Both the position numbers and the translations under genes were made by a program. Shown here in pieces: positions 4,699 through 17,863 of a stretch of 17,863 nt of DNA. The DNA comes from Planctomycetota bacterium (GTDB lineage: Bacteria; Planctomycetota; GCA-002687715; DRQF01), in contig WFTN01000525.1 of assembly GCA_015485455.1 (NCBI GenBank), forward strand, positions 1 to 17,863, read 5' to 3'. The notes under the pieces are model-generated. The model saw only the letters and a list, made by a program, of their open reading frames with translations. It searched no databases and was not told the DNA's origin. The number at the start of each line of letters is the position of its first letter. The first letter of the stretch is position 1.

Positions 4699-6162
4699 GT
4701 GAATGCGGGGCTCTCGCCCCAAGAAAAGGATGATTTTTCTGTGACAGGCCGCCGCCGCTCACTTTTTGGTTATGACCCTAACGCTCTTGACCGGCCCAAT
4801 TTGGGACCTTCGGCCAAAGAAGAGTCATTAACGGTTTCCCAAGTGACCGCCATGGTCAGGCAACGTCTGGAGCGCGAGTTTCGTCAAATCGTCGTTGTTG
4901 GCGAATTGAGCAATGTGGTCCATGCGGCCAGCGGTCATCTCTATGCCAACCTGAAAGATGGAAAGTCGCAGATCGCCATGGTTATGTGGCGGACCCAGAA
5001 AGCCCGGCTCAACTTTGAAGTGGAGGATGGGGTTGAGGTTGTTGTGACCGGCCGTTTGAGTCTCTACGAACCAAGAGGCAGCTTTCAGCTTATCGCTGCT
5101 TCCATGGTGGCAGAAGGCACTGGAAATTTAGAAGCTCAATTCCGCGCTCTCAAAGCCCGCTATGAAGAGTTGGGGTGGTTCGACCCGGCCCAGAAATTGG
5201 AACTGCCTTTTCTTCCGGAAACGATTGGTGTTGTGACCTCTTCTGCGGGGGCTGCCATCCATGACATTTTGCAGACGATTCTTGGGCGTTTTCCTAAGGC
5301 TCATCTACGTCTCATTCCCGTTCGTGTGCAGGGGGCAGGTTCCTCAGAAGAAATTGCCGCGGCCATCGATCACTTTTGCGCCACCAAGGCCTGCGACGTT
5401 TTGATTGTCGGGCGAGGTGGGGGCAGCATTGAAGATCTTTGGGCTTTCAACGAAGAGCCCGTGGTAGAAGCCATTCATCGAGCCAAGATCCCCGTGATTT
5501 CCGCTGTTGGGCATGAGACCGATGTCACTTTGTCAGATCTTGTGGCCGACCACCGTGCTCTCACGCCGACGGCTGCTGGGGAAGTTGTCGTGCCGATCTT
5601 GGAAGATTTGGAGGATGACCTTGGTGATTCTCTTGGTCGCCTCAATCGTGTGGTCAACCATCAGATGGCAAGTGCACAAAACAGCTTGAACGCCTTGGCA
5701 CGAAGCTGGGCTTTGCGTGAGCCCCTGAATTACTTGCGCCGAGTTGAGCAGAGGTTGGATGAACTTGGACGCACCCTCAATCGCGTTTGTTCGGACAGAC
5801 TCGCAGCCTCGAAGAAACGGCTGGAGGTTTTGGGAGAAACACCAGGTCGTCTTGGTTTGCTCTCTCGTTTGACCCAAGCACAGGAAGGCCTGGCTCGCGG
5901 GAGTTCTCGGTTGGACGGCAGTATGAATGAATTGATGAAGCGCGCTGCCAATGACCTGGATTTTCAAAGACGATTGTTAGAGGGCCTATCACCTTTATCT
6001 GTCCTCGAGCGGGGCTACAGCATCACCCGAACTCAAGATGGTAAGATCGTGCGGAGGGCGGACGATCTGACTCCCGGGGATCAACTGAACACGCGTTTTG
6101 CCGATGGCGAAGCGGCATCGACTGTCACGAAAATATCAAGGGAAGACGAAGCAAACCGATGA
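4699..6162 (+). CDS. xseA: Exodeoxyribonuclease VII large subunit
   Basis: Catalytic subunit of exonuclease VII, which degrades single-stranded DNA from both ends to acid-soluble oligonucleotides and acts in mismatch repair and damage processing. An OB-fold nucleic acid binding domain occupies about 43-135 (IVVVGELSN..., GHLYANLKD). The catalytic domain carries TSSAGAAIHDI (180-190), VGRGGGSIEDLWAFNEE (237-253) and AVGHETDVTLSDLVADHRA (269-287). A long helical region follows, then the C-terminal LERGYSITR motif. The length of 487 is slightly above usual because of an unconserved N-terminal extension. The start is uncertain: GTG at 4699 has AAGGA only two bases away, while GTG at 4741 is preceded by AAAAGGA ten bases upstream and would give 473 residues. 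It heads a gene run with xseB 32 bases downstream. Confidence 0.96.
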   Translation: MNAGLSPQEKDDFSVTGRRRSLFGYDPNALDRPNLGPSAKEESLTVSQVTAMVRQRLEREFRQIVVVGELSNVVHAASGHLYANLKDGKSQIAMVMWRTQKARLNFEVEDGVEVVVTGRLSLYEPRGSFQLIAASMVAEGTGNLEAQFRALKARYEELGWFDPAQKLELPFLPETIGVVTSSAGAAIHDILQTILGRFPKAHLRLIPVRVQGAGSSEEIAAAIDHFCATKACDVLIVGRGGGSIEDLWAFNEEPVVEAIHRAKIPVISAVGHETDVTLSDLVADHRALTPTAAGEVVVPILEDLEDDLGDSLGRLNRVVNHQMASAQNSLNALARSWALREPLNYLRRVEQRLDELGRTLNRVCSDRLAASKKRLEVLGETPGRLGLLSRLTQAQEGLARGSSRLDGSMNELMKRAANDLDFQRRLLEGLSPLSVLERGYSITRTQDGKIVRRADDLTPGDQLNTRFADGEAASTVTKISREDEANR

Positions 6163-6194
6163 ACTCGGAGTGCCCCAAAGAATGAGGAAAGACC

Positions 6195-6425
6195 ATGGCC
6201 AAGAAAATTGGTTTTGAACAAAAGATGTCCGACTTGGAAAAAATTGTTGCCGATCTCGAAGGGGGTGAATTGAGTTTGGAAGATGCGGTTTCTCACTATC
6301 AAAAGGGAATCAAACTTCACCGAGACGCCCAAGGGATGCTCAATGCTATGGAGAAGAAAATCGAGGCGGTGACCGCCGATGGAACTTTCGCTCCTCTAGA
6401 AATCAAGGACGGGGAGAAAGCGTGA
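6195..6425 (+). CDS. xseB: Exodeoxyribonuclease VII small subunit
   Basis: A 76-residue helical subunit that assembles in several copies around the XseA helices to make active exonuclease VII. The family core is visible: FEQKMSDLEKIVADLEGGEL followed by SLEDAVSHYQKGIKLH. The length is standard. GAGGA at 6184-6188, six bases before the ATG, is a good ribosome site. The stop overlaps the GTG start of ispA (GTGA), giving translational coupling. The xseA-xseB-ispA order is widespread in Proteobacteria and related groups, which supports all three calls. Confidence 0.96.
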   Translation: MAKKIGFEQKMSDLEKIVADLEGGELSLEDAVSHYQKGIKLHRDAQGMLNAMEKKIEAVTADGTFAPLEIKDGEKA

Positions 6426-7303
6426 GCGATCATCTGAAACATCTCTTGGAAGGCCACAAGCAGACAGTCGAGCAAAAGATGGCCGAAATATTGCCAACTT
6501 GCCCAGTCAATGCAGCCATTGTTGATGAGGCGATGCGCTACAGTTTGTTCGCCGGGGGAAAGAGGTTGCGTCCCGGGATGATGCTTGCGGTCAAAGATGC
6601 ATTGGGGGGTGAGACAGAAAATGTCTTACCGGTGGCATGTGCCATTGAGATGATCCATACTTATTCTCTGATTCACGACGATCTTCCCTGCATGGATGAC
6701 GACGACTTGCGCCGTGGAAAGCCAACTTGTCACGTCAAGTATGGCGAAGGGATGGCGGTGCTGGCGGGAGATGCTCTGTCGAATGCAGCCTTCTGGGTCA
6801 TTGCTGAGCACACGCGGGATAAGGACTTAGTCCCTGATTTGGTCACTGAACTGGCCACGGCGGCGGGCACCAGTGGCATGATTGGGGGGCAAGTCCTGGA
6901 TATTGTCAGTGAAGGGGCCAAGCCGGAGATCGAAGCTGTACGGGAGATTCATCGGCGGAAAACAGGGGCGCTTTTTGTGGCGTCTATGCGCTTGGGGGCC
7001 ATTGCCTCTCGGGCGACTTCTGAGCAACTGGAACATATTTGTGAGTTTGGCCGTCGCGTGGGCTTGGCCTTTCAGATTATGGACGACATTCTCGACTTAG
7101 AAAGTGACGCCGCCACTCTCGGAAAGACTGCCGGAAAAGACCTAGAACAAGGTAAGATGACCTATCCCGCCTGCATCGGCGTCGAGGCTTCGCGCAAGGA
7201 AGCAAAGGAATTGATCGATGGCGGGCGTGAATTGTTAGTTGGACTTGATCCCCATGGCGATTTAGAAGCCTTGGCTGGATTCATTTATTCGAGGCTCAAT
7301 TAG
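6422..7303 (+). CDS. ispA: Farnesyl diphosphate synthase (short-chain trans-prenyltransferase)
   Basis: Condenses dimethylallyl diphosphate with isopentenyl diphosphate to farnesyl diphosphate, the precursor of undecaprenyl carrier, quinone tails and other isoprenoids. At 293 residues it is normal for IspA. The first aspartate-rich motif is DDLPCMD at 86-92, inside YSLIHDDLPCMDDDDLRRG, very close to the Escherichia coli IspA sequence. The second is DDILD at 221-225. GGKRLRP (45-51) and GGQ (155-157) are also present. The residues just before the first motif are Tyr-Ser as in bacterial farnesyl synthases, which favours the C15 product; a C20 product cannot be excluded. The GTG start has GGGGAG five bases upstream and overlaps the xseB stop. 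Confidence 0.95.
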   Translation: MSDHLKHLLEGHKQTVEQKMAEILPTCPVNAAIVDEAMRYSLFAGGKRLRPGMMLAVKDALGGETENVLPVACAIEMIHTYSLIHDDLPCMDDDDLRRGKPTCHVKYGEGMAVLAGDALSNAAFWVIAEHTRDKDLVPDLVTELATAAGTSGMIGGQVLDIVSEGAKPEIEAVREIHRRKTGALFVASMRLGAIASRATSEQLEHICEFGRRVGLAFQIMDDILDLESDAATLGKTAGKDLEQGKMTYPACIGVEASRKEAKELIDGGRELLVGLDPHGDLEALAGFIYSRLN

Positions 7304-7305
7304 AC

Positions 7306-9225
7306 ATGTCAGGACTCCTTCAGTCCATTCGCAACCCCAGAGACCTTCGGCAAGTGCCGATTGCACGTTTGCCTCATTTAGCCATTGAGCTTAGAGAGCA
7401 CATCTTGCGTCGCTTCGCCATGAAAGACGCTTATTTGAAAAGTGCTCTGGGTATGGCAGACCTGACAGTTGCTTTGCATCACGTCTTCGACTTTGCCCAT
7501 GATAAGCTGGTTTTCGATTTGGCCCATCAGGCGGCAGCCCATTTGGTGTTGACGCGAGGGAAATCGGAGAATGGCAATTCCTTGGACGAACGACCTCTCC
7601 CTGTTTCTCCTGGCGATGAGAGAGAGCCCTACGATCACTTCTTCTCCCTTCATCCTGGCACTGCGGTATCGAAGGCTTTGGGAATTGCCCAGGCCTCTGG
7701 CAATGACTCCAAGACTGTTGCGGTGATTGGCGATGGGGCTGTGGTCTCTGGGGTGGCCTTGGAAGCTTTGAACAACGGACACGGCTTAGACAGCAACACT
7801 TTGGTCATCCTCAATGACAATGAAATGAGTGTTTCGAAAGTTGTCGGCGCCATGGGGGAGTACTTGGCAAAAGTTCGGGCGGGCAAGACTTATAACGAAC
7901 TCAAAAAAGACGCTCACAAGATTCTGCAGTCCATCCCCATCATCGGAACGGGCTTGGATAAGGCAGCGGAGCAACTGAAGGATGCAGTTTCGAAGGCGCT
8001 CGTCCCAGGGTCGATTTTTGAGAAACTGGGACCGCGTTACTTTGGTCCCGTTGACGGTCACAATGTCGGTCATTTGGTCCAATTGATGAACGAGATCAAG
8101 GACCAGGAAGGGTTCAATCTTCTCCATGTGATCACTCGGCGAGATGAAAGAGTTGATAGCGATCATGAACGTTTGGTTTTTCCTGTCGCTTCTGTGGCAG
8201 AAGATGAGGACGTTGATGCTGATCTGGTGCGGGGCATTGAGTTTGAACGCCAGGGAGAAGATCCTTGGAATGACGTTTTTGCCCACAGTCTCCTGCGGGT
8301 GGCTGAAGAAGACGAGGCCATCAGGGTTCTTCTTCTTGCCGCTCCCGATGTGCGTGGCATCGGCAAGGCCAGCTCCCAATTTGAATCGAAATTACCGGGC
8401 CGCGTCTTTGATATGCAGGTGAACGAGCAGCACGGAGTTGCTTTCGCTGCGGGCTTAGCTCATGCTGGTCTAAAACCTGTGATCGTGTCTCCTGCCAGCG
8501 TCATCCAACGGGCCCAAGATCAGATTTTTCAAGAAATTGCTTTGAGTGGTTTGCCAGTGGTTTTGGCTTTGTGTTACGCCGGGTTGATTGATGCCCGCGC
8601 GGGCCTTTATCATGGTATTCAAGATATCGCTCTTCTTCGTGCCATGCCTGGCATCGACATGATGTCGCCCAGGGACGGGCGCGAACTCGATTTGATGTTT
8701 GATATGGCCTTGCAATCCAGTGGCCCCAGTGTTTTGCGGATTTCCCATTCTTTCGCTCCAGATGCCGATCGTCTCTATGACGAGCAACAAGAGTTGGTGC
8801 GTGGTCGTCCTGAAATCTTGCGTCGCGGAAGTGATATGGCCATCTTTGCTTTGGGCAGTTTGGTCTACTCGGCCATGGAGGCAGCCGATCTATTGGCAGC
8901 AAAGGGGCTCGAAGCTACGGTGATCAACGCGCGCTTCGCTAAACCCCTCGACGCCGAATTTTTGGAGTCGATGTTGGATGAGCACACCATCGTTTTCACC
9001 TTAGAAGAACATGCAATCGCTGGAGGGTATGGCTCAGCTATACTTGAGCTGGCGGCTCGGGAGCGCTTGGGGGCTGGGAAGATTGTCCCCATTGGTGTTC
9101 CCAAGGGTGCAGTGAGTCGACTCTCGCGGATGCGGCTTCTAAGACGCATGGGGCTGGATCGCCAAGGATTGGCAGATCGCATGGTCCATGAATATCGACG
9201 GCACGTTAGATCTCCGAATCGGTGA
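7306..9225 (+). CDS. dxs: 1-deoxy-D-xylulose-5-phosphate synthase, divergent
   Basis: A transketolase-fold, thiamine diphosphate enzyme. By position and overall sequence it is DXS, which makes DXP from pyruvate and glyceraldehyde 3-phosphate, the entry step of the MEP isoprenoid pathway. It is 639 residues long. Conserved elements are LHHVFD (57-62), AHQ (73-75), GDG (142-144), NDNEMSVS (170-177), YFGPVDGHN (245-253), the catalytic glutamate in NEQHGVAFAAGLA (E374) and QRAQDQ (R402). Unusual points: the GHSS motif reads LHPGT; the KGKGY-type motif after the DGH region is missing; and residues equivalent to E. coli Y392, D427, H431 and R478 appear as Pro, Arg, Tyr and His (numbering from memory). 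It follows ispA by two bases, as is usual for dxs. The function is likely, but altered substrate use is possible. Confidence 0.82.
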   Translation: MSGLLQSIRNPRDLRQVPIARLPHLAIELREHILRRFAMKDAYLKSALGMADLTVALHHVFDFAHDKLVFDLAHQAAAHLVLTRGKSENGNSLDERPLPVSPGDEREPYDHFFSLHPGTAVSKALGIAQASGNDSKTVAVIGDGAVVSGVALEALNNGHGLDSNTLVILNDNEMSVSKVVGAMGEYLAKVRAGKTYNELKKDAHKILQSIPIIGTGLDKAAEQLKDAVSKALVPGSIFEKLGPRYFGPVDGHNVGHLVQLMNEIKDQEGFNLLHVITRRDERVDSDHERLVFPVASVAEDEDVDADLVRGIEFERQGEDPWNDVFAHSLLRVAEEDEAIRVLLLAAPDVRGIGKASSQFESKLPGRVFDMQVNEQHGVAFAAGLAHAGLKPVIVSPASVIQRAQDQIFQEIALSGLPVVLALCYAGLIDARAGLYHGIQDIALLRAMPGIDMMSPRDGRELDLMFDMALQSSGPSVLRISHSFAPDADRLYDEQQELVRGRPEILRRGSDMAIFALGSLVYSAMEAADLLAAKGLEATVINARFAKPLDAEFLESMLDEHTIVFTLEEHAIAGGYGSAILELAARERLGAGKIVPIGVPKGAVSRLSRMRLLRRMGLDRQGLADRMVHEYRRHVRSPNR

Positions 9226-10157
9226 ACCAGAAGAGAAAATCGGCGTTTCTGATGTTTGAGTCATTGAGGAATAAGGCCGTGAGCTCTCCCATTTTCGACA
9301 ATGAAATCCGCAAGCAGATCCGCGCTATGAAATTGCGTGTTCGCAAGGTTTTCTCTGGAGAAGGGGGTGGCGCCATTCGGGCTCGGGGACTGGGGGCAGG
9401 TCATGATTTTCACGACCACAAGCCATACTCCGAAGGCGATGACTTTCGCTACATTGACTGGAATCTCTTTGGGCGTCATGGGGAGTTGCATATCAAGAGG
9501 TTTCGCCAGGAGACCAATTTAGAGTTTTTCCTGATTTTGGACCGAAGCGCATCCATGTCTTTAGGGAAGCCCAGCAAAGATGTTTTTTGCCGACGGCTTG
9601 CTTCTGCCTTATCTGCTTGTTTTGCCGGTCCAGCTCAACCCGTTCAAATTGTTCTCGCTGAAAGAGGTCTACCAAGGGTTGGCCCCCAAATAAGAAACAG
9701 CAACGATCTTGAGGTCGCCATGAACGATCTGGAATCTCTGTCCCCAGCCCAAGGGCAATTAGAGTTGCCACTTGGGGATGGTTTGCCCAGAACGGCCCAG
9801 AATCGTGTTGTTTTCTATTTGGGAGACTTCCTCCAAAGCGGCAACTTGATAGGGGAGTTGGCATCTTTGCGCAGCAGCCAATGTGAGGTGCAATGTGTCT
9901 TGATATGCGCGGAAGAAGAGCGGGCTCCCAAGTTGCATGGCCGAGTTCATTTGTGGGATATCGAGTCAAATGCTGAACTTCGCTTGACTCTAAACCCGAA
10001 GATGCTTGATCGTTATGTTGAGCTCTTTGAAGCTCACTTAGAAGACCAACAGCGTTTGGCCCGAGCCGCTGGGCTGAAGCTCTTCATCGTTGGTTCTGAG
10101 TCGACTTTGGAGCAGGCCATCATCTCTTTGGTCACTCATGGTGGGTTGACGACATGA
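9222..10157 (+). CDS. DUF58 domain protein (vWA-like), MoxR-associated family
   Basis: Belongs to the DUF58 proteins normally encoded beside MoxR AAA+ ATPases and Bat-type vWA proteins, and thought to act in assembly or stress protection of envelope or metal-containing complexes. The hallmark HKPYSEGDDFRYIDWN lies at about 66-81, followed by HIKRFRQE and the metal-site-like DRSASM (107-112) of the vWA fold. No membrane segment is visible. The GTG start at 9222 overlaps the dxs stop (GTGA); an alternative ATG at 9252 would shorten it by 10 residues, and neither has a strong ribosome site. The stop overlaps the next ATG (ATGA). No moxR gene is in the window. Confidence 0.9.
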   Translation: MNQKRKSAFLMFESLRNKAVSSPIFDNEIRKQIRAMKLRVRKVFSGEGGGAIRARGLGAGHDFHDHKPYSEGDDFRYIDWNLFGRHGELHIKRFRQETNLEFFLILDRSASMSLGKPSKDVFCRRLASALSACFAGPAQPVQIVLAERGLPRVGPQIRNSNDLEVAMNDLESLSPAQGQLELPLGDGLPRTAQNRVVFYLGDFLQSGNLIGELASLRSSQCEVQCVLICAEEERAPKLHGRVHLWDIESNAELRLTLNPKMLDRYVELFEAHLEDQQRLARAAGLKLFIVGSESTLEQAIISLVTHGGLTT

Positions 10158-11662
10158 TTCTCATCAATCCCCAATTCTTGTGGCTTCTTCTTCCCTTTAT
10201 TGCTCTTTGTTGGTGGCGACTGAGGCGAACAGGAGAATTGGGACGCAATGTCAGTACTTTGGCGATTTGGCAACAGCTTTTGGCTGAGCAAGGGCAGGGG
10301 CAAACCACCGCTTTGCGTATTCCTTGGCGTCTACTTCTTGAGTTGCTCGCTGGGTTGTTGATCATTCTGACAATCGTGAATCCAGCTTATGTTGAGGAAG
10401 ACCCGCTCCTCGTTTTGGTCGATCAAAGTGGGTCCATGGGGGCCCCCAATCGAGTCGCAGGAGCGAAACTTCGGGTCAGCGAGTTGAAAAAGGAAAATAG
10501 AGGCTCCGTAGACGTTGTATTTCTACCTCCTGACAAGAACGGCTTTCCTCCCCATTGGACTCAGCTCTTGTCATCGGCGGATTACCGGGGGCGCCGTACG
10601 GAAATCGTATCTGATTTCTTAGCAGCCAACGTCAGCTTGCCGCCGAACGTTGGTTTTCAAGTGATCAGTGATCCCGTGCACAACGTGGGACTTGTAAAGG
10701 CCCGCGCAGTTCCGGCGACTGAAGGTGGTATCAGCTTATTTGTCGCCATTGCACGCACTACAAATGAGATCGGTGGCAAGGTCGAAGTCCAAATACTGGT
10801 CCCCGGATTGCCGACTCCTATTCACGCCCTTACTTTTGAAGGAGGGGTGAGCCAATACCAACAGGAAACAGTGGCTCTGAGCATTCCTCAAGACGCCCAA
10901 AGTTTGATCATAAGGCTCCCCCAACAGGATGATCTTTCTTTTGACAACCAGATGACGTTGTCCCGTCCCCACCCAGCGCGTCTGGTTTTTTCGGAACCGG
11001 GGCGCGGCTCAGAAACATGGCAAGCCATGTGGGACGCCGCAGCGGCCTTGCGTTTTGACCCCATCATGGCGGTAAATTCCACCACGACTCGTTCGCAGTT
11101 TGTCCTGTCTGTGGGGATGCCCACACCCAGTGCCCGAGGCAACTTAGTCATGGCTGCAACTTCCCTTCCCAAACAAGTGTTGATGAGTCCAGAAGCGACA
11201 ACACGTCGATCTGCCAAGCTCAATGACCTGCCAGGAATCAACGACTGGCTCTTTCAACAACGTTTTCAAACACCTCTGCCCCAAGGCTTCCAACTGTTGG
11301 TAAGCACTCAGTCAGGTCCGGTGGTGGTTAAGGAGAAGGCGACGAACACGATCTTCGTTGCTGGTGATCCCATCAAATCGAAATGGGCTGAGAGAGCGTT
11401 CTTCCCCCTCATGATTCGAGCACTTCTAACTGAACTTGGTTTCGAAGGCTCAGGCAGCACCAATGCCTGGCAGCCTCATGACCCAACCTCGCAACCTCTC
11501 GAAAGCCGCCTCAACGAAACCCAAGCTTCTACATCACCCCAACAAGCCTGCCCCGCAACCAATCCGTCCTCAAGAGCACAACCCTGGGGCCCATGGTTAG
11601 GGCTCATCACCTGTTTGCTCCTTTTGGCCCTCGCCCTGGATTGCCTCAAGCAGTATCGCTGA
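10154..11662 (+). CDS. BatA-like membrane protein with vWA domain
   Basis: A 502-residue membrane protein with the BatA N-terminal arrangement: helix one at about 5-22 (FLWLLLPFIALCWW), then a short loop with a basic patch, and helix two at about 58-78. Helix two leads directly into a vWA domain whose metal-ion site is DQSGSM (90-95). The middle (about 150-440) is mainly beta-like and should face the periplasm. A Pro/Ser/Gln-rich linker and a C-terminal helix at about 478-498 (LGLITCLLLLALALDCL) close it. The family functions beside DUF58 and MoxR proteins. The vWA segment looks shortened, because the TxD-type second metal motif is not obvious. It is the last gene of the long plus-strand run, coupled to the DUF58 gene by ATGA overlap. 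Confidence 0.82.
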   Translation: MILINPQFLWLLLPFIALCWWRLRRTGELGRNVSTLAIWQQLLAEQGQGQTTALRIPWRLLLELLAGLLIILTIVNPAYVEEDPLLVLVDQSGSMGAPNRVAGAKLRVSELKKENRGSVDVVFLPPDKNGFPPHWTQLLSSADYRGRRTEIVSDFLAANVSLPPNVGFQVISDPVHNVGLVKARAVPATEGGISLFVAIARTTNEIGGKVEVQILVPGLPTPIHALTFEGGVSQYQQETVALSIPQDAQSLIIRLPQQDDLSFDNQMTLSRPHPARLVFSEPGRGSETWQAMWDAAAALRFDPIMAVNSTTTRSQFVLSVGMPTPSARGNLVMAATSLPKQVLMSPEATTRRSAKLNDLPGINDWLFQQRFQTPLPQGFQLLVSTQSGPVVVKEKATNTIFVAGDPIKSKWAERAFFPLMIRALLTELGFEGSGSTNAWQPHDPTSQPLESRLNETQASTSPQQACPATNPSSRAQPWGPWLGLITCLLLLALALDCLKQYR

Positions 11663-12032
11663 TCCAGAACTCTCACACGATAGAATGCTCTCGATTTTCC
11701 CTGGAAGCCAGTGGCTGTGTGGGGTAGGTGTTGCCGAATGAGGGCGGAGTTCGAATTCGCCTGTTGATTCTCTCTTTCTGCGAATTGCAGAGCACTCAGG
11801 TGTTCGGTGTAAGTCGTTCCTACCGCACTTCTTGCTGCACATGCTCACGGACCCGGCTCGCCGTTTCTCGGTAAAATCCCCTTTTCCACATGGCGTGTGA
11901 CAATCCTCTGTCTTGACAGCCAGTTTGGGACCGAATAACTTGCGCGTAGTTCCGTGAAGGCGCGTTTGCATCTTTGTTTCGGAGCAAGGATCTCAGGTTT
12001 CAACATTAATTCGCAAGGCAAATAGTCGCGCC
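11663..12032 (+). other. 370-base intergenic gap between the housekeeping run and the kinase/SNF2 pair
   Basis: I see no gene here on either strand. Open minus-strand frames exist, but they are low-complexity and run into the flanking genes. It contains an 11-base perfect inverted repeat, AGCCAGTGGCT (11706-11716), without a T tract, and a TTCGAATTCG palindromic stretch near 11750. It also contains a perfect TTGACA at 11913. No tRNA, attachment-site repeat or insertion-sequence end was recognised. It is the obvious place for the end of the upstream transcript and the promoter of the downstream pair. Confidence 0.6.
11913..11939 (+). promoter_or_regulatory. Candidate sigma-70-type promoter for the kinase/SNF2 gene
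   Basis: A perfect -35 box TTGACA (11913-11918) is followed after 15 bases by AATAAC (four of six matches to TATAAT) ending at 11939; a 17-base spacer gives the weaker TAACTT. It lies about 94 bases upstream of the ATG at 12033. Position and the -35 box support it; the -10 box is weak. Confidence 0.3.
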
Positions 12033-15000
12033 ATGACCATCGATGCTCGCAAAAAGCTCGCGGACCAAATATGCCGAGTCTTGATTCGATCAAACGAACC
12101 ACTTTGTGCTCATTCCATTGGCGATCGACTTCGAGGTGAAGGGCACATCGTCACAAAGCAAGAAATCAATAGCATTCTCTATTCTGGTGTTCATGGGAAA
12201 AACTTCCGAAGTTGTCGTGGTGAATCCAAAAGACCTCTTTGGGAGTCTGTTGCCAAGACCGGTAGAGCGAAGAACCCTGAACCCGTTCCGCGCGATGAAC
12301 CGAAAACGAGAAAAATCGAATCGGCTGATAATGAACGAATAGATCTGTTGAGTAGCACAAGGACACCACCGGCCCGGGGGGGGCCAAAGAAAGATGATCT
12401 GCCTGTCGTTCCAGAGGAGATAGGTGTCGCCCCTGGACTAAACGGAATTCTGTTTCCAGAATTGACAATGACAACTCCTCGAGTGAAACGCTCGATAGTC
12501 GTGGGCAGAAAAGAGGTAACAATACTTGGTCACCCCGCATTATCGCCGACGCTTACAACTCCGCCCAGAGCGAAACCAGTTGGCAATACTTCGAAAGGAG
12601 CAGAGTCGGTCGTCAACACTGTACGCTATGAAGCTGGTGAGGTTCTTGACGACCGTTATGAAGTAATTGCGTTGTTGGGCGAAGGAGGAATGGGACAGGT
12701 GCTATGTGCTCTCGACTTGCAACGCTCGCGGCAAGTTGCCCTAAAAACACTTCGACGTCGGGAAGGAGTCGATAGAATCGCCCTCAAGAACGAAGTCGAG
12801 TTGCTCACCCTGATTGATCGTCCTGACTATTTCCCACGGGTCTATGAATCCTTTGAGTTTGAAGGTGCTTTCTTCATGCCGATGGATCTCCTCGAAGGCG
12901 AGGATCTCAGGGTGCATTTAGAATCAGCTGACCCCGCCGCCATCGATGCAGCATTTGTTCGCCAGGTCTTTGATCAGATTTGCGACCGATTGGACTATTT
13001 GCACAACTTCTTGGGCGGTCAAGTCTTATTTCGTGACCTGAAACCCAGTAACATTATGGTTGAGAAAAATCCTCTTACGGTTCGGCTGATTGACTTTGGA
13101 ATTGCTTCCATGTCTGAGCGAGATGACATTCATGCGGGCACTCGGTTTTTTTGGGCCCCGGAAGCTCAATTAGGGACATATTCTGTCCAAAGTGATCTCT
13201 ACGCATTGGGCGGCATCTTATCTTGTTTACTGCAGTCGCGGGGAGCCAGTGATCCCAAGAAAGTGCTGCACACTATACCTTTCAGTGCTGAAAGGAGTCT
13301 GCCATCAAGCTTGGTCGAAGTCGTCGCGACCTTAAGATCGGAAGCTCCCGGTGATCGACCTGCAAGTGTGCGCAGTGCTCAAGATTTGTTTCATGCCGCC
13401 TTCAGCAAAATCGAAAATAGCGAGCATGCGGTTGTTAATCGTTGCGAACGGTGTGACGCTCCTCAAGGTCGGGACTATTTTCTGTGCTGGAAATGTGGGA
13501 CATGGTTGAAAGGAGTCGCAAGCGTTGGCGCCGCCAGAATCGATGGATTTAAGGCCAATTTACGTCATCAACTGCAAATTGCGTGCGATGGTGCCCCTGA
13601 TGGCGCCCCTGCTGAAATAATCGATCTTGCAGAAAGGGCTGCCTCTCTTCAAAGGTTGCCAGCCTACGAAGAACTCACATGTTTGCCCTACATTGATGTT
13701 TCACCTTACCCTTATCAGACCGGTGCCGCACTGAAAGTCCTGCGAGATTTTGGAGGACGTGGTATTTTGGCGGATGAGGTCGGGTTGGGAAAGACAATTG
13801 AAACCGGCTTGATTGTAAAAGAATACATTGTTCGCAAGGAAGCCAAACGGATATTGGTTCTTGTTCCCCCACAAACGAAAATGCAATGGGCGGAAGAGAT
13901 GCGCATGAAATTCAGAATCAATAACGTCCAAGTCTTTGGGACGGGGGATGGTGAAACTTCAGACCGTCGGTCTTTTCATCGAAACGAGGTTTTTGTGGTT
14001 GTGTCTCATTCCATTGCTAGTCGGCGGGACAATTTCGAAATGTTTCGCCAGTCGCCTTGGGATGTCGTTATCGTTGACGAGGCGCATCGAGCCCGTCCAG
14101 GGAGAAAGGCCAACAATCTTGGCAGACTGGTCGCTTCGCTCAAGACTCGGCGAATGCTCCTGTTGAGCGCGACGCCGGCAAGAAACAGCCTGACAGAACT
14201 CTATGACCTTGTGAGTCTCCTTCGACCCGGCCTATTTGCAGAGGACACAAATGCATTCATTTCTTTTTTTGGCGGTAGAAAAGGCAATTGGGCGGTAAAA
14301 AACTTGGACATGCTGCAGTCAACACTTGAAGAGGTCATGATTCGTAATCGAAGAGAAATGGTACACAAGGCCTTCCCGAGTAGGAAGTCACAAACCTTCC
14401 GGATTACCCTAAGCGCCAAGGAGTCGAAAGCCTACAAAGGATTCATTGGTGCTCTACAAGGTAGCGTTTCCGGCGGATTAGTCATCACCACTCGCGCTCG
14501 CCAGTTTTGTTCTTCGTTTCAGGCGCTCCTTGATTCTTCGGTCGGTAGTGATTTCTTGGACCACATTCGAAGTGTGGCGCAGTCCTCTCATTTCAAGACT
14601 CGATGTCTCATCGATCAGATTGTCCCACAATTGATGAATGCAGGCGAAGAAAAAGTGATTATCTTCTCGCAGTTTGTCGCCAGCCAAAAAGAGATTTGTG
14701 CCGCACTTGAGTCTGCAGGTTACCGAACTGCTTGGAGTGGAAATGGGACCGTAAAAGCGATCAAGCAGTTTCAGCACGATGCCAAAACTCGTTTTCTTGT
14801 GACTGGAGTGGGGCTGTCGGAAGGAGTAAACCTTCAATTTGCGAGATGTATGATTAACCTAGACCTACCTTGGAACCCGCAACAGATCGAACAACGGATA
14901 GGCCGAATTCAGCGTCTTGGCAGCAAGTTTCGCGAAGTTCTGGTGCTCAATCTCATGGCAGAGGAGACCATCGAAAATCTCGTTATCGAATATATCGAAC

Positions 15001-15257
15001 AGAAATTAGGGATGTTCGAAACGGTATTTGGATTCGTAGAGGCAATACTCGGCCAGTTCAAGGACAGTGAATCTGTCGAGGGATTTGTGCGGAAGGCACT
15101 TCAACAGGGAAGTGCTGGCGAAATTGACCCTTCAATCGCACGCCGTGGGGGAGAACGCATCCAAGAAGCCCGGCAAGCGGCAGATTCGAATGTCTCTGCA
15201 AATCGCTTTGACTCTTTGCTTATTGGCCTGGGGTCTGATGCGGAAATTGGGCTTTGA
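12033..15257 (+). CDS. Fusion of Ser/Thr protein kinase, zinc ribbon and RapA-like SNF2 ATPase
   Basis: A 1074-residue multi-domain protein. Residues 5-70 look like a winged helix (SIGDRLRGEGHIVTKQEINS, then ILYSGVHGK); 75-205 is a polar linker. A Hanks-type kinase spans about 209-455: Gly loop GEGGMG (216-221), K238 in VALK, catalytic FRDLKPSN (D335; His of HRD replaced by Phe), DFG (354-356) and APE, so it looks active. A zinc ribbon follows with Cys 471, 474, 485 and 488. The SNF2 motor covers about 555-1010: GLGKT (K587), DEAH (682-685), SAT (712-714), LSEGVNLQFA (about 926-935), and QQIEQRIGRIQR (950-961), which is closest to the RapA/HepA type. It should use ATP to move along double-stranded DNA or strip proteins; the kinase may regulate it or a partner. 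ATG 12033 has a poor ribosome site. Its stop overlaps the next start (TTGA). No family with this exact order is known to me. Confidence 0.93.
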   Translation: MTIDARKKLADQICRVLIRSNEPLCAHSIGDRLRGEGHIVTKQEINSILYSGVHGKNFRSCRGESKRPLWESVAKTGRAKNPEPVPRDEPKTRKIESADNERIDLLSSTRTPPARGGPKKDDLPVVPEEIGVAPGLNGILFPELTMTTPRVKRSIVVGRKEVTILGHPALSPTLTTPPRAKPVGNTSKGAESVVNTVRYEAGEVLDDRYEVIALLGEGGMGQVLCALDLQRSRQVALKTLRRREGVDRIALKNEVELLTLIDRPDYFPRVYESFEFEGAFFMPMDLLEGEDLRVHLESADPAAIDAAFVRQVFDQICDRLDYLHNFLGGQVLFRDLKPSNIMVEKNPLTVRLIDFGIASMSERDDIHAGTRFFWAPEAQLGTYSVQSDLYALGGILSCLLQSRGASDPKKVLHTIPFSAERSLPSSLVEVVATLRSEAPGDRPASVRSAQDLFHAAFSKIENSEHAVVNRCERCDAPQGRDYFLCWKCGTWLKGVASVGAARIDGFKANLRHQLQIACDGAPDGAPAEIIDLAERAASLQRLPAYEELTCLPYIDVSPYPYQTGAALKVLRDFGGRGILADEVGLGKTIETGLIVKEYIVRKEAKRILVLVPPQTKMQWAEEMRMKFRINNVQVFGTGDGETSDRRSFHRNEVFVVVSHSIASRRDNFEMFRQSPWDVVIVDEAHRARPGRKANNLGRLVASLKTRRMLLLSATPARNSLTELYDLVSLLRPGLFAEDTNAFISFFGGRKGNWAVKNLDMLQSTLEEVMIRNRREMVHKAFPSRKSQTFRITLSAKESKAYKGFIGALQGSVSGGLVITTRARQFCSSFQALLDSSVGSDFLDHIRSVAQSSHFKTRCLIDQIVPQLMNAGEEKVIIFSQFVASQKEICAALESAGYRTAWSGNGTVKAIKQFQHDAKTRFLVTGVGLSEGVNLQFARCMINLDLPWNPQQIEQRIGRIQRLGSKFREVLVLNLMAEETIENLVIEYIEQKLGMFETVFGFVEAILGQFKDSESVEGFVRKALQQGSAGEIDPSIARRGGERIQEARQAADSNVSANRFDSLLIGLGSDAEIGL
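12376..12383 (+). repeat. Homopolymer of eight G in the kinase/SNF2 gene
   Basis: Eight consecutive G encode part of Ala-Arg-Gly-Gly-Pro (around residue 115) in the linker between the N-terminal domain and the kinase. A one-base slip here would truncate the protein before the kinase, so it is a possible slippage site or a sequencing-error risk. Confidence 0.9.
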
Positions 15258-17863
15258 GTGCGTGGATAACAAGTGAGTTAGAACGCTTTGTCGTGGATGT
15301 TTGCCGAGAGCTTGGCATTTCGGTGAAGCGGCCATCGCCTCATGAGATTGAATTGATCATTCCACCTCACTTAAGGAAAAGGTTTGGCAATCTTTCAACG
15401 GTGCGGCTTACTGGATCCCAAGACATGAAGAGGCTCGACAGCGAGCTTGAGTACCTTGCGCCAGGAAACTTTGTCGTTGACTGCATGTTCGACTTAATGC
15501 GTGGCAAGAACGTACCCTTTGGATCAGTGATTGCCGGGGTTCCCAAGCGTGTTGATGCCGAAGAATATGCCCATTCTTTCGCAAAACGGTTTATCTCGTC
15601 GACTCGCGAGAAGGGGAAGTTGCCTCCCGGGTACGAGCTCGTCTCTTTGGAGCAGGAGGTTGGCTATAGGACTTTTCTCAGGGCCCTTGTTGAGCTCAAG
15701 ATACATGGCGCAAGGCCCCTTCACGAGGTTTTTCCTGTTCTTGTAAATCTTGCAGATGGCGAGCTCGTTCCTGCAAGCTTGTTTGCCGCGCGAACAACTT
15801 ATGACCCGAAAGATCACCCTGCAATCGCACGAGCACTGCCAAAGGAAATCGACCGAGTACGATTGAGTAGCGCGCTTGATTCCATCACCCATGCAGTAGA
15901 TCAGATCGGTTCAAGTCTCATGGCGGAGGCTATTGGTCCCAATACTCAGGCGGTCGAAGCTCAGCGTATTGAGACCGAGCGCTACTATGACAGACAACTG
16001 CTCTTAGCCCCTTTCGACAGGGATGCCATTGAAGCCGAGCGGGCAACTCGCCTTGAATCATTGGACGAATCCCGCCATGCGAGGGCGGCAGCCATGCCGA
16101 TTTCTTTGACTGTCATTCATGAAGTTGTGCCACACCTAGGGGTGATTGTCGCGAACGGTCGAGGTCGAGAATTTGAGTTCAGAATTCCGGCGATTCCAGG
16201 GCGCGCCGAGATCCCAGATGACGCGATCTGTTGTGGGCACCTTGACCGACCGCTCCTCATTGATCCTGCTGGAGGAATTTATTGCGACGAGTGTTTGCAG
16301 GAATGCCGCTGCTGCAGCACCGGTTCGGCCAATTCTGCTTGTGAAGCTTGTGCCAAACAGGGTCATTCTGTTTGCATCGATTGTGCTGTTAGCGTCGGTG
16401 ACGGGTGGTCTTGTGAGAAACATTCATTTGTCTGCTCGATAGGGGGGGAGCGCCACCTGAGTATCGAACGTACGAAATGTGCCCGGTGTGATGCCGATGT
16501 CTGTCGATTGGAAGAACATTCCTCACAATGCGAGACCCAAGGTGAGACATTCTGTCGAAAATGCGCCACGATTCACCTTTATGCATGCCGAGAATGTGGT
16601 GGCAAGGTTTGTAGTTCGCATGCACTGAGGTCCAGCGTTGATGACGCACCACTTTGCAGTGGCTGTGCCGTCGAATGTAGCGCTTGCAAGGGGACGATGT
16701 CTAAATCCCAAGGGATCATGTGTTCCACGTCCACGTGCGCGGAGGTGCTTTGCCCCGAGGATGCCAATGATCACTTCTGTACACAGTGCGGAAAAGTCAC
16801 TTGCGTCGATCACCTTGGCGATTCGACTCTTACGAATCGACCATTCTGTGACTCCCATCGCGTAGATTGCCGAGCCTGTGGGACTGTGCTTGGAGAGATT
16901 GAAAGCCAGAAATGCGAAGGCTGTCATGCGCCATTTTGTGAGGCATGTTGCGTAGAAACTAGAGCTGGTCAAATGGCATGTTTGGGTTGTACTGGCCAAT
17001 GCGCCGTTGACGGTCACGTTCACTTTTCTAACCAGCTGAAGAGGTGCACGCAGCACGACGATAGCAGTGCTCAGTTTTGTGAGGACCATTGTTCAACTTG
17101 TAAATCTTGCGCGGTCCCCATTTGCGCCGAGCATACAGAAATTGCGTCTTTAAGTAGCGACACATTGTGTTCGCGGTGCATTGTTGAATGCAGTGATTGC
17201 GGTGGGACACTTCGGGAGGTTGAAACAGTTCATTGCACAATTTGTGATCAACCGCACTGCAAAGCGCATGATTCCAAGTGCAGCTACTGTCTGAAACCAG
17301 TTTGCCACACTCATCGCGTAGTCTCGGTGTTGACCGGGGCTGTCGTTTGCCTCACGTGTGCCGTTCCTTGTCAAACGTGTGAAGTAGCGATTGGTCCTGA
17401 TGAGGGGGTCGGATGCGGTTCCTGTAGCGCACGTTTTTGTGGCCTTTGCGGGGAGGTCCCTCATTGTGCAGAGGGTGGGCATCCTACGTGTGTTGATCAT
17501 CTATCGGCATGCAAGATCACGGGGCAAGAATTATGCGAGTCTCACAGGGAATCGTGCGTGAGATGCGAGGCGACTTTGAAAGAAGAAGTTGCGGAGGCCT
17601 GCAGTTCTTGTGGCGACTATTCCTGTTGGGAACACACCGCGAGATGCCGCCTTGATGACAAGATTCTGTGCGATAAATGCGCTGTCACGACAACGCTCGA
17701 TACCGGCATTTTCTGTGATAGTCACTTGAAAACGTGTAGCTGTTGCAATGAAAGGTCGGCGTACTTTTCGGTTGGATCCAATCTCTGCAAGCTCTGCGAG
17801 ATATTCCGGACAAGAATTACTGCTGGCGAGCTTCCATTTTCAATAGAGAAGATCGATTGCTTC
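15254..17863 (+). CDS. Giant cysteine-rich multi-zinc-finger protein, coupled to the kinase/SNF2 gene (3' end outside window)
   Basis: An open frame of 870 codons runs from 15254 to the window end without a stop. The frame is closed by TGA at 15236, so the first usable start is TTG 15254, which overlaps the SNF2 stop as TTGA; GTG 15293 is the alternative. Residues 1-325 contain only two cysteines; 235-300 is a charged coiled coil (ERYYDRQLL, EAERATRLESLDESRHARA) followed by a beta stretch, like the C-terminal accessory region of RapA-type SNF2 proteins. Residues 326-870 contain about 86 cysteines in regular CxxC/CxxH pairs, which must bind many zinc ions (disulfides are unlikely in a cytoplasmic partner). 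No signal peptide or membrane helix is seen. Spacing resembles FYVE/PHD/RING-class cross-brace fingers. I do not recognise the family. Coupling suggests it forms a complex with the upstream ATPase, perhaps as substrate reader or kinase target. Confidence 0.9.
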   Translation, partial: MSAWITSELERFVVDVCRELGISVKRPSPHEIELIIPPHLRKRFGNLSTVRLTGSQDMKRLDSELEYLAPGNFVVDCMFDLMRGKNVPFGSVIAGVPKRVDAEEYAHSFAKRFISSTREKGKLPPGYELVSLEQEVGYRTFLRALVELKIHGARPLHEVFPVLVNLADGELVPASLFAARTTYDPKDHPAIARALPKEIDRVRLSSALDSITHAVDQIGSSLMAEAIGPNTQAVEAQRIETERYYDRQLLLAPFDRDAIEAERATRLESLDESRHARAAAMPISLTVIHEVVPHLGVIVANGRGREFEFRIPAIPGRAEIPDDAICCGHLDRPLLIDPAGGIYCDECLQECRCCSTGSANSACEACAKQGHSVCIDCAVSVGDGWSCEKHSFVCSIGGERHLSIERTKCARCDADVCRLEEHSSQCETQGETFCRKCATIHLYACRECGGKVCSSHALRSSVDDAPLCSGCAVECSACKGTMSKSQGIMCSTSTCAEVLCPEDANDHFCTQCGKVTCVDHLGDSTLTNRPFCDSHRVDCRACGTVLGEIESQKCEGCHAPFCEACCVETRAGQMACLGCTGQCAVDGHVHFSNQLKRCTQHDDSSAQFCEDHCSTCKSCAVPICAEHTEIASLSSDTLCSRCIVECSDCGGTLREVETVHCTICDQPHCKAHDSKCSYCLKPVCHTHRVVSVLTGAVVCLTCAVPCQTCEVAIGPDEGVGCGSCSARFCGLCGEVPHCAEGGHPTCVDHLSACKITGQELCESHRESCVRCEATLKEEVAEACSSCGDYSCWEHTARCRLDDKILCDKCAVTTTLDTGIFCDSHLKTCSCCNERSAYFSVGSNLCKLCEIFRTRITAGELPFSIEKIDCF
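16442..16448 (+). repeat. Homopolymer of seven G in the cysteine-rich gene
   Basis: Seven G encode Gly-Gly and the first base of Glu (residues 397-399) near the beginning of the zinc-finger array. It parallels the eight-G tract in the partner gene and would likewise disrupt the frame if it slipped. Confidence 0.9.
16553..17797 (+). repeat. Protein-level array of cross-brace-like zinc modules
   Basis: Within the cysteine-rich protein (residues 434-848) the pattern C-x2-C-x11-C-x2-C-x4-C-x2-[HC]-x10/11-C-x2-[CH] recurs. Full examples start at Cys539 (539, 542, 554, 557, 562, 565, 576, 579) and Cys768 (768, 771, 783, 786, 791, His794, 806, 809). Partial or variant copies start at about 434, 475, 598, 646 and 706. 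The block C-x2-[CH]-x3-C-x2-C recurs at 468, 532, 639, 699, 761 and 821, 60-64 residues apart apart from one longer gap. The DNA itself is not visibly repeated, so the copies are old and diverged. Confidence 0.8.

Follow-up and report, generated by a model that had tools for sequence, protein, structure and literature searches.

The window analysed here is a stretch of 17863 bases from a Planctomycetota bacterium (genome G000), which comprises an entire contig (C525). One strong match to PSD1, a family known from Planctomycetota and relatives, was obtained in G000, which is in line with this phylum. It contains two overlapping genes on the forward strand, designated gene A and gene B. Gene A codes for a protein in which a Ser/Thr kinase, a probable zinc ribbon and an SNF2 ATPase core are combined. 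Gene B codes for a protein consisting of two parts, an N-terminal partner domain which resembles both the C-terminal part of RapA and the YqhG protein of Bacillus, and a Cys-rich array following it. This division into two parts was missed in a preliminary description of the locus, which was made from the sequence alone.

Reading frame of gene B

The frame of gene B is open from TTG 15254 through 17863 with zero stop codons, and the TG of this start codon also opens the TGA stop codon of gene A, resulting in the four-base overlap TTGA. Both the open frame of 870 codons and its start inside the SNF2 stop codon, as claimed in the preliminary description, were thereby confirmed. A stop codon is absent from the window because the contig ends there. 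The downstream extension which had been called for was supplied by a database protein, P0002, from a record of 35,259 bases. P0002 is identical to gene B across the overlap, continues for 62 residues and then ends, so that full-length gene B comprises 932 amino acids. The start called for P0002 is an internal ATG, corresponding to Met58 of gene B. Thus, an ATG does exist in the frame, which had been described as lacking one as a start, but translation is unlikely to begin there: homology to the partner genes of other genomes begins at about residue 7, and TTG 15254 is the sole ATG, GTG or TTG codon ahead of this residue, which together support the TTG as the better start. The features of both genes are listed in Table 1.

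Table 1. Features of gene A and gene B in the window
Feature	Position	Strand	Remarks
Gene A	12033..15257	+	Kinase, probable zinc ribbon and SNF2 ATPase; 1074 amino acids
Protein kinase domain, gene A residues 209-403	12657..13241	+	
Four-Cys motif C471, C474, C485, C488 of gene A	13443..13499	+	Between kinase and SNF2
SNF2 ATPase core, gene A residues 577-963	13761..14921	+	
TTGA overlap	15254..15257	+	Gene B start and gene A stop
Gene B	15254..17863	+	870 codons inside the window; 62 further codons past the contig end
RapA C-terminal-like/YqhG-like partner domain, gene B residues 1-293	15254..16132	+	
Cys-rich array, gene B residues 326-870	16229..17863	+	43 Cxx[CH] pairs; running on past the window
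Modelled array module, gene B residues 640-731	17171..17446	+	CxxC-x11-CxxC-x4-CxxH-x3-CxxC-x4-CxxH-x11-CxxC-x3-CxxC

Domains encoded by the two genes

For residues 1-293 of gene B, a Foldseek search against the PDB gave four matches at E<=0.001, which were RapA every time (best 1.2e-7). The structural alignment places this part of gene B on residues 708-968 of RapA; the Pfam C-terminal domain of E. coli RapA covers residues 605-965. On the sequence level, direct searches with gene B against Pfam, PADLOC, NCBIfam and PDB sequences gave zero matches, and no match was found to viral contigs. A large protein database yielded its own record and nothing else, the 7996 most word-sharing candidates having been scored, so that orthologues were possibly missed. 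The homology search proposed in the preliminary description was thus unsuccessful in its direct form, but a profile without the zinc tail did link residues 1-325 to the partners of other SNF2 genes. With the tail cut off both the profile and gene B, 74 realigned partner sequences matched this part at 25.0 bits (E=5.6e-6), compared to at most 7.2 bits for an unrelated open reading frame (ORF), 5.8 bits for a reversed ORF and 4.3 bits in 2000 shuffles.

In addition, an iterative profile was grown in six rounds from the L020 partner, which was picked as seed because it was the best sub-threshold match of gene B itself (E 0.055); the window gene was excluded from the profile. The best E values for pieces of the window gene in rounds one to six were 0.059, none, 0.0081, 1.7e-8, 4.1e-8 and 1.2e-11. 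Rounds four and five reached the window gene through its L129 piece alone, while in round six P0001, the window gene itself, was found at 6.7e-11 and the next unrelated ORF at 0.16 (5424 sequences). Since the E values vary between rounds, this search is alignment-dependent. Judged by profile, the partner domain is distantly related to YqhG of Bacillus, and its identity as a RapA/YqhG-like domain is considered nearly certain.

Among curated families, PF11079 (YqhG) did not recognise gene B at E<=1; it was matched at E<=1 by 22 of the 40 members of an alignment designated A2, which contains the window sequence. The Pfam family RapA_C (PF12137) was found neither in gene B nor in its genome, and it is not among the matches listed for A2 members (25 of 77 families). 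With plain HMMER, the best domain of the partner profile against RapA reached 1.4 bits; among three RapA relatives the scores were 1.4 and -0.7 bits with the third unlisted, which is a weak match in the same register. A search with the RapA C-terminus among the ORFs of the collected loci gave no significant match. L002 and L003, obtained in the first search for relatives, were judged to be chance matches. A mutual exclusion of RapA_C and the partner was also considered and dropped, since only 3 of 294 genomes were over the cut-off and 5 of 294 at E<=0.001. In one genome, G123, a weak RapA_C match and a partner gene occur together.

In the array of gene B, 86 of 545 residues are Cys (15.8%), in agreement with the earlier claim of about 16% arranged in regular pairs, and the number of Cxx[CH] pairs given in Table 1 compares to 17.6 on average and at most 30 in 2000 shuffles of the same residues. 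The module of residues 640-731 was modelled at a pLDDT of 93. Structures ranked near the top for this module include FYVE, LIM and PHD fingers, every match being weak; the ligand spacing of these fingers presumably resembles that of the module. The spacers of the array are common to gene B and the L077 partner from candidate division KSB3. Moreover, all Cys of the tail are retained across four related genes of genus g104 at 61-76% identity, a fifth g104 partner (L171) having been excluded from this comparison as a fragment. A lack of purifying selection had been named in the preliminary description as a finding that would speak against the gene; the retained Cys answer this point, with the evidence coming from relatives instead of the window gene. 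By its sequence and by this one model, the tail consists of successive zinc-finger-like modules, which would bind zinc. The Cys content as such would also be consistent with a metal store or a redox sensor without any binding role. However, the fixed spacing common to L077 and the confident fold of the module point to structural fingers, which makes this explanation highly improbable. Beyond the array, both gene B, in the residues 871-932 contributed by P0002, and the L173 partner finish with a stretch devoid of Cys, which is perhaps a small cap domain.

For gene A, Pfam matches were obtained to SNF2-rel_dom (1.1e-35), Pkinase (1.7e-28) and Helicase_C (5.7e-15). What we take to be the catalytic motifs of the kinase were all found (K238, E254, RDLKPSN, DFG and APE), and the four-Cys motif, probably a zinc ribbon by its sequence, is invariant in 7 of 7 sequences. 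Six orthologues (P0004-P0009) have the same layout, with 46-56% identity over the searched residues 440-1074, and below them the score falls sharply from 552 to 336 bits. Among 294 genomes of the window's phylum, with the best two candidates per genome scored, only its own genome was matched at E<=1e-120. Gene A was aligned with residues 152-731 of E. coli RapA. Tudor-like domains, which RapA has at its N-terminus, were not recognised in gene A at E<=1.

Occurrence of the gene pair

The co-conservation check suggested in the preliminary description was carried out on the 80 best among 548 confirmed relatives from a genome scan with A1, all with kinase-less SNF2 genes. Of the 80 loci, 75 have a same-strand partner downstream of the SNF2 gene, one more locus (L083) contains a fusion, and no partner was found in 4, two of which (L032 and L062) sit near a contig end. 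In L083, from Mycobacterium asiaticum, a single open frame of 2027 codons (9515-15595) unites the SNF2 core with the partner domain and with Cys pairs. The start nearest to the SNF2 stop is <=150 bases away in 71 of the 75 partner genes, the exceptions being L024, L048, L063 and L029. A four-base overlap by a start codon is possible in 18 of the 75, a count for which the nearest start was chosen and which is favoured by this choice. The pair of L173 likewise has a four-base overlap, here with an ATG start. In this sample the pair was identified foremost in Bacilli, where the gene after SNF2 is YqhG (PF11079; L054 and L020); Archaea are represented by a single record (Haloarcula, L055). Among 45 viral loci fetched with A1, the partner gene was found in none.

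In the window's phylum, A2 matched 31 of 294 genomes, counting that of the window, with at most seven candidates per genome scored. For 25 of the 30 phylum loci returned, the window included, the gene A profile was matched within a flank of 1.5 kb, and the five loci without a flanking SNF2 gene all belong to genus g104. The SNF2 gene was found about 2.4 kb upstream of the partner in G232 and, in the same orientation, at a distance of about 12 kb on the upstream side in G149, while for the g104 loci L164, L169 and L171 the contig ends at or <1 kb from the upstream side of the partner. The pair is thus usual but adjacency is not constant. In L162 (6360-8564), also of g104, frames read from their translations as nitroreductase-like and repeat-rich lie between the SNF2 gene and the Cys-tailed partner.

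A kinase fused to SNF2 is rare. By Pfam, it was identified in 8 of 120 SNF2 proteins listed, the window's own counted, and in none of the SNF2 frames of the 80 genome loci, Bacilli included. In wider stretches from the phylum, a kinase is present in 3 of 12 SNF2 genes (L168, L172 and L173). In these three other genomes the kinase-SNF2 gene is followed by a Cys-tailed partner, which answers the objection, foreseen in the preliminary description, that homologs might be absent beside other kinase/SNF2 genes. The kinase motifs are intact in L168 and L173 and degenerate in L172 (6897-9524), where the sequence possibly represents a pseudokinase. Array and kinase are not coupled, since Cys arrays accompany kinase-less SNF2 genes too and the 80 genome loci are without a fused kinase. 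The earlier claim that gene B and the kinase/SNF2 gene probably form one functional unit is supported, not proven, by the 75 of 80 loci and the fusion, by L168, L172 and L173, and because residues 1-293 of gene B resemble a part of RapA which gene A does not contain.

Two neighbourhoods are also of note. Positions 4699-9225 of the window are occupied by neighbouring genes, one XseA-like, one small and XseB-like (6195-6425), one for a polyprenyl synthase and dxs, the Xse names being our own presumptive assignments. Downstream of the pair in L173 (9237-13012; genome G091), two genes were identified, a frame of 571 amino acids which is unmatched in Pfam and one for an FHA domain-containing HerA-like ATPase; no homologues of these two genes were found in the other collected loci.

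Possible function and comparison to known systems

We propose, as the probable reading but with clear reserve, that genes A and B code for a split, kinase-equipped RapA-type SNF2 translocase with a zinc-finger tail. Gene A would provide the ATPase core of a RapA/HepA-type motor, with its Ser/Thr kinase taking the place of the N-terminal Tudor-like domains of RapA, and residues 1-293 of gene B would provide the RapA C-terminal part as a separate chain. By the four-base start overlap, translation may be coupled and the two chains would assemble during synthesis; the formation of an A-B complex is considered very likely. This complex would move along DNA and dislodge or recycle stalled RNA polymerase like RapA, the chances that the polymerase is its target being about even. 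The tail would represent a FYVE/LIM-like zinc-finger chain and form a multivalent docking arm to which RNA polymerase, nucleic acid or some additional partner would bind. The kinase may adjust the motor or mark its target.

From the literature on RapA, HepA and yqhH we infer the assembly of A and B, the action on stalled polymerase, the docking array and the kinase control. RapA is described as a polymerase-bound SNF2 ATPase which stimulates recycling, and its residue D744 as forming a putative salt bridge to the beta-prime zinc-binding domain of the polymerase (excerpt of PMC8501970). B. subtilis HepA, which is YqhH or RapA, is counted among the RNA polymerase-interacting translocases (excerpt of PMC7385302). 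For Bacillus thuringiensis, a yqhH knockout was reported to lower UV survival at 30 min, not at 60 min, and YqhH to hydrolyse ATP and to unwind DNA in vitro (excerpt of PMC10054049).

The results on B. thuringiensis YqhH would also fit a role of the pair in the remodelling or repair of DNA or of protein complexes of the nucleoid, in place of an action on RNA polymerase, with the array binding DNA or a modified protein in a manner similar to the finger arrays of eukaryotic SNF2 remodellers. The SNF2 core of gene A matches eukaryotic remodellers about equally well as RapA (ISWI 3.6e-27, RapA 6.7e-27), and the HerA-like ATPase with FHA domain downstream in L173 would be in line with such a role. 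However, RapA is the only significant fold match of the partner domain, and B. subtilis HepA is placed with the polymerase-interacting translocases, so that this role is regarded as rather unlikely.

A two-chain SNF2 motor with a Ser/Thr kinase and a FYVE/LIM/PHD-like array reading a protein or nucleic-acid mark, as a counterpart of the regulated eukaryotic remodellers, is an unlikely though conceivable extension. FHA domains are phospho-threonine readers, and under this reading a protein combining FHA and a HerA-like ATPase, such as that encoded downstream of the pair in L173, might complete a phosphorylation circuit in some members.

The best PADLOC match of gene A is DrmD (7.7e-59), and NCBIfam DrmD was matched by 2 of 40 members of the partner family (best 7.4e-5). 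Together with the HerA-FHA gene neighbouring the pair in L173, this would suggest an anti-phage or conflict system akin to the DISARM or BREX helicases. However, gene A reaches 199.2 bits at an NCBIfam DrmD cut-off of 950, gene B gave no match in PADLOC, and the HerA-FHA gene is without a homologue in the other collected loci. Among the genes upstream in the window are those for polyprenyl synthase, Dxs and a DUF58 protein, which to our knowledge are not known as defence genes. A defence function is therefore clearly improbable, and the split RapA-type motor is preferred.

Among the literature matches listed, titles and the beginnings of abstracts contained nothing linking YqhG-like partners to RapA or describing the pair; yqhG of E. 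coli and S. aureus is taken to be a namesake of Bacillus YqhG. The analysis suggests a structural identity for the function-unknown YqhG family and its wider relatives, which would correspond to the C-terminal part of a RapA-type motor made as a chain of its own. The two-gene motor pair is found in many bacteria, and in one bacterial phylum long arrays of predicted zinc fingers, and sometimes kinases, are attached to the SNF2 motor.

Compared to RapA/HepA, the SNF2 core of gene A and the predicted fold of the partner domain are alike. However, RapA is encoded by one gene and the system described here by two, gene A contains a kinase while Tudor-like N-terminal domains were not detected, and in gene B a zinc array is added and Pfam RapA_C is unmatched. 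With Bacillus YqhH/YqhG, the pair has in common the order of SNF2 gene and partner gene and a remote profile homology. In contrast to gene B, YqhG is tail-less with about 270 amino acids and belongs to PF11079, and the SNF2 frames of Bacilli are without a fused kinase. For the wider family of YqhG-like SNF2 partners, both the profile homology and the same-strand position directly after SNF2 are found in gene B. The partners of L077 and L173 contain the partner domain and a Cys array with common spacers, and that of L173 is likewise located downstream of a kinase-SNF2 gene, whereas the SNF2 frame of L077 has no fused kinase; non-overlapping pairs in the whole frame number 27 for L077, 60 for L173 and 42 for gene B. 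With DISARM DrmD and the BREX helicases the SNF2 core is alike, but gene A is far under the NCBIfam DrmD cut-off and gene B is unmatched. By curated cut-offs, the gene pair is thus placed outside RapA and YqhG, and it probably works like a split RapA.

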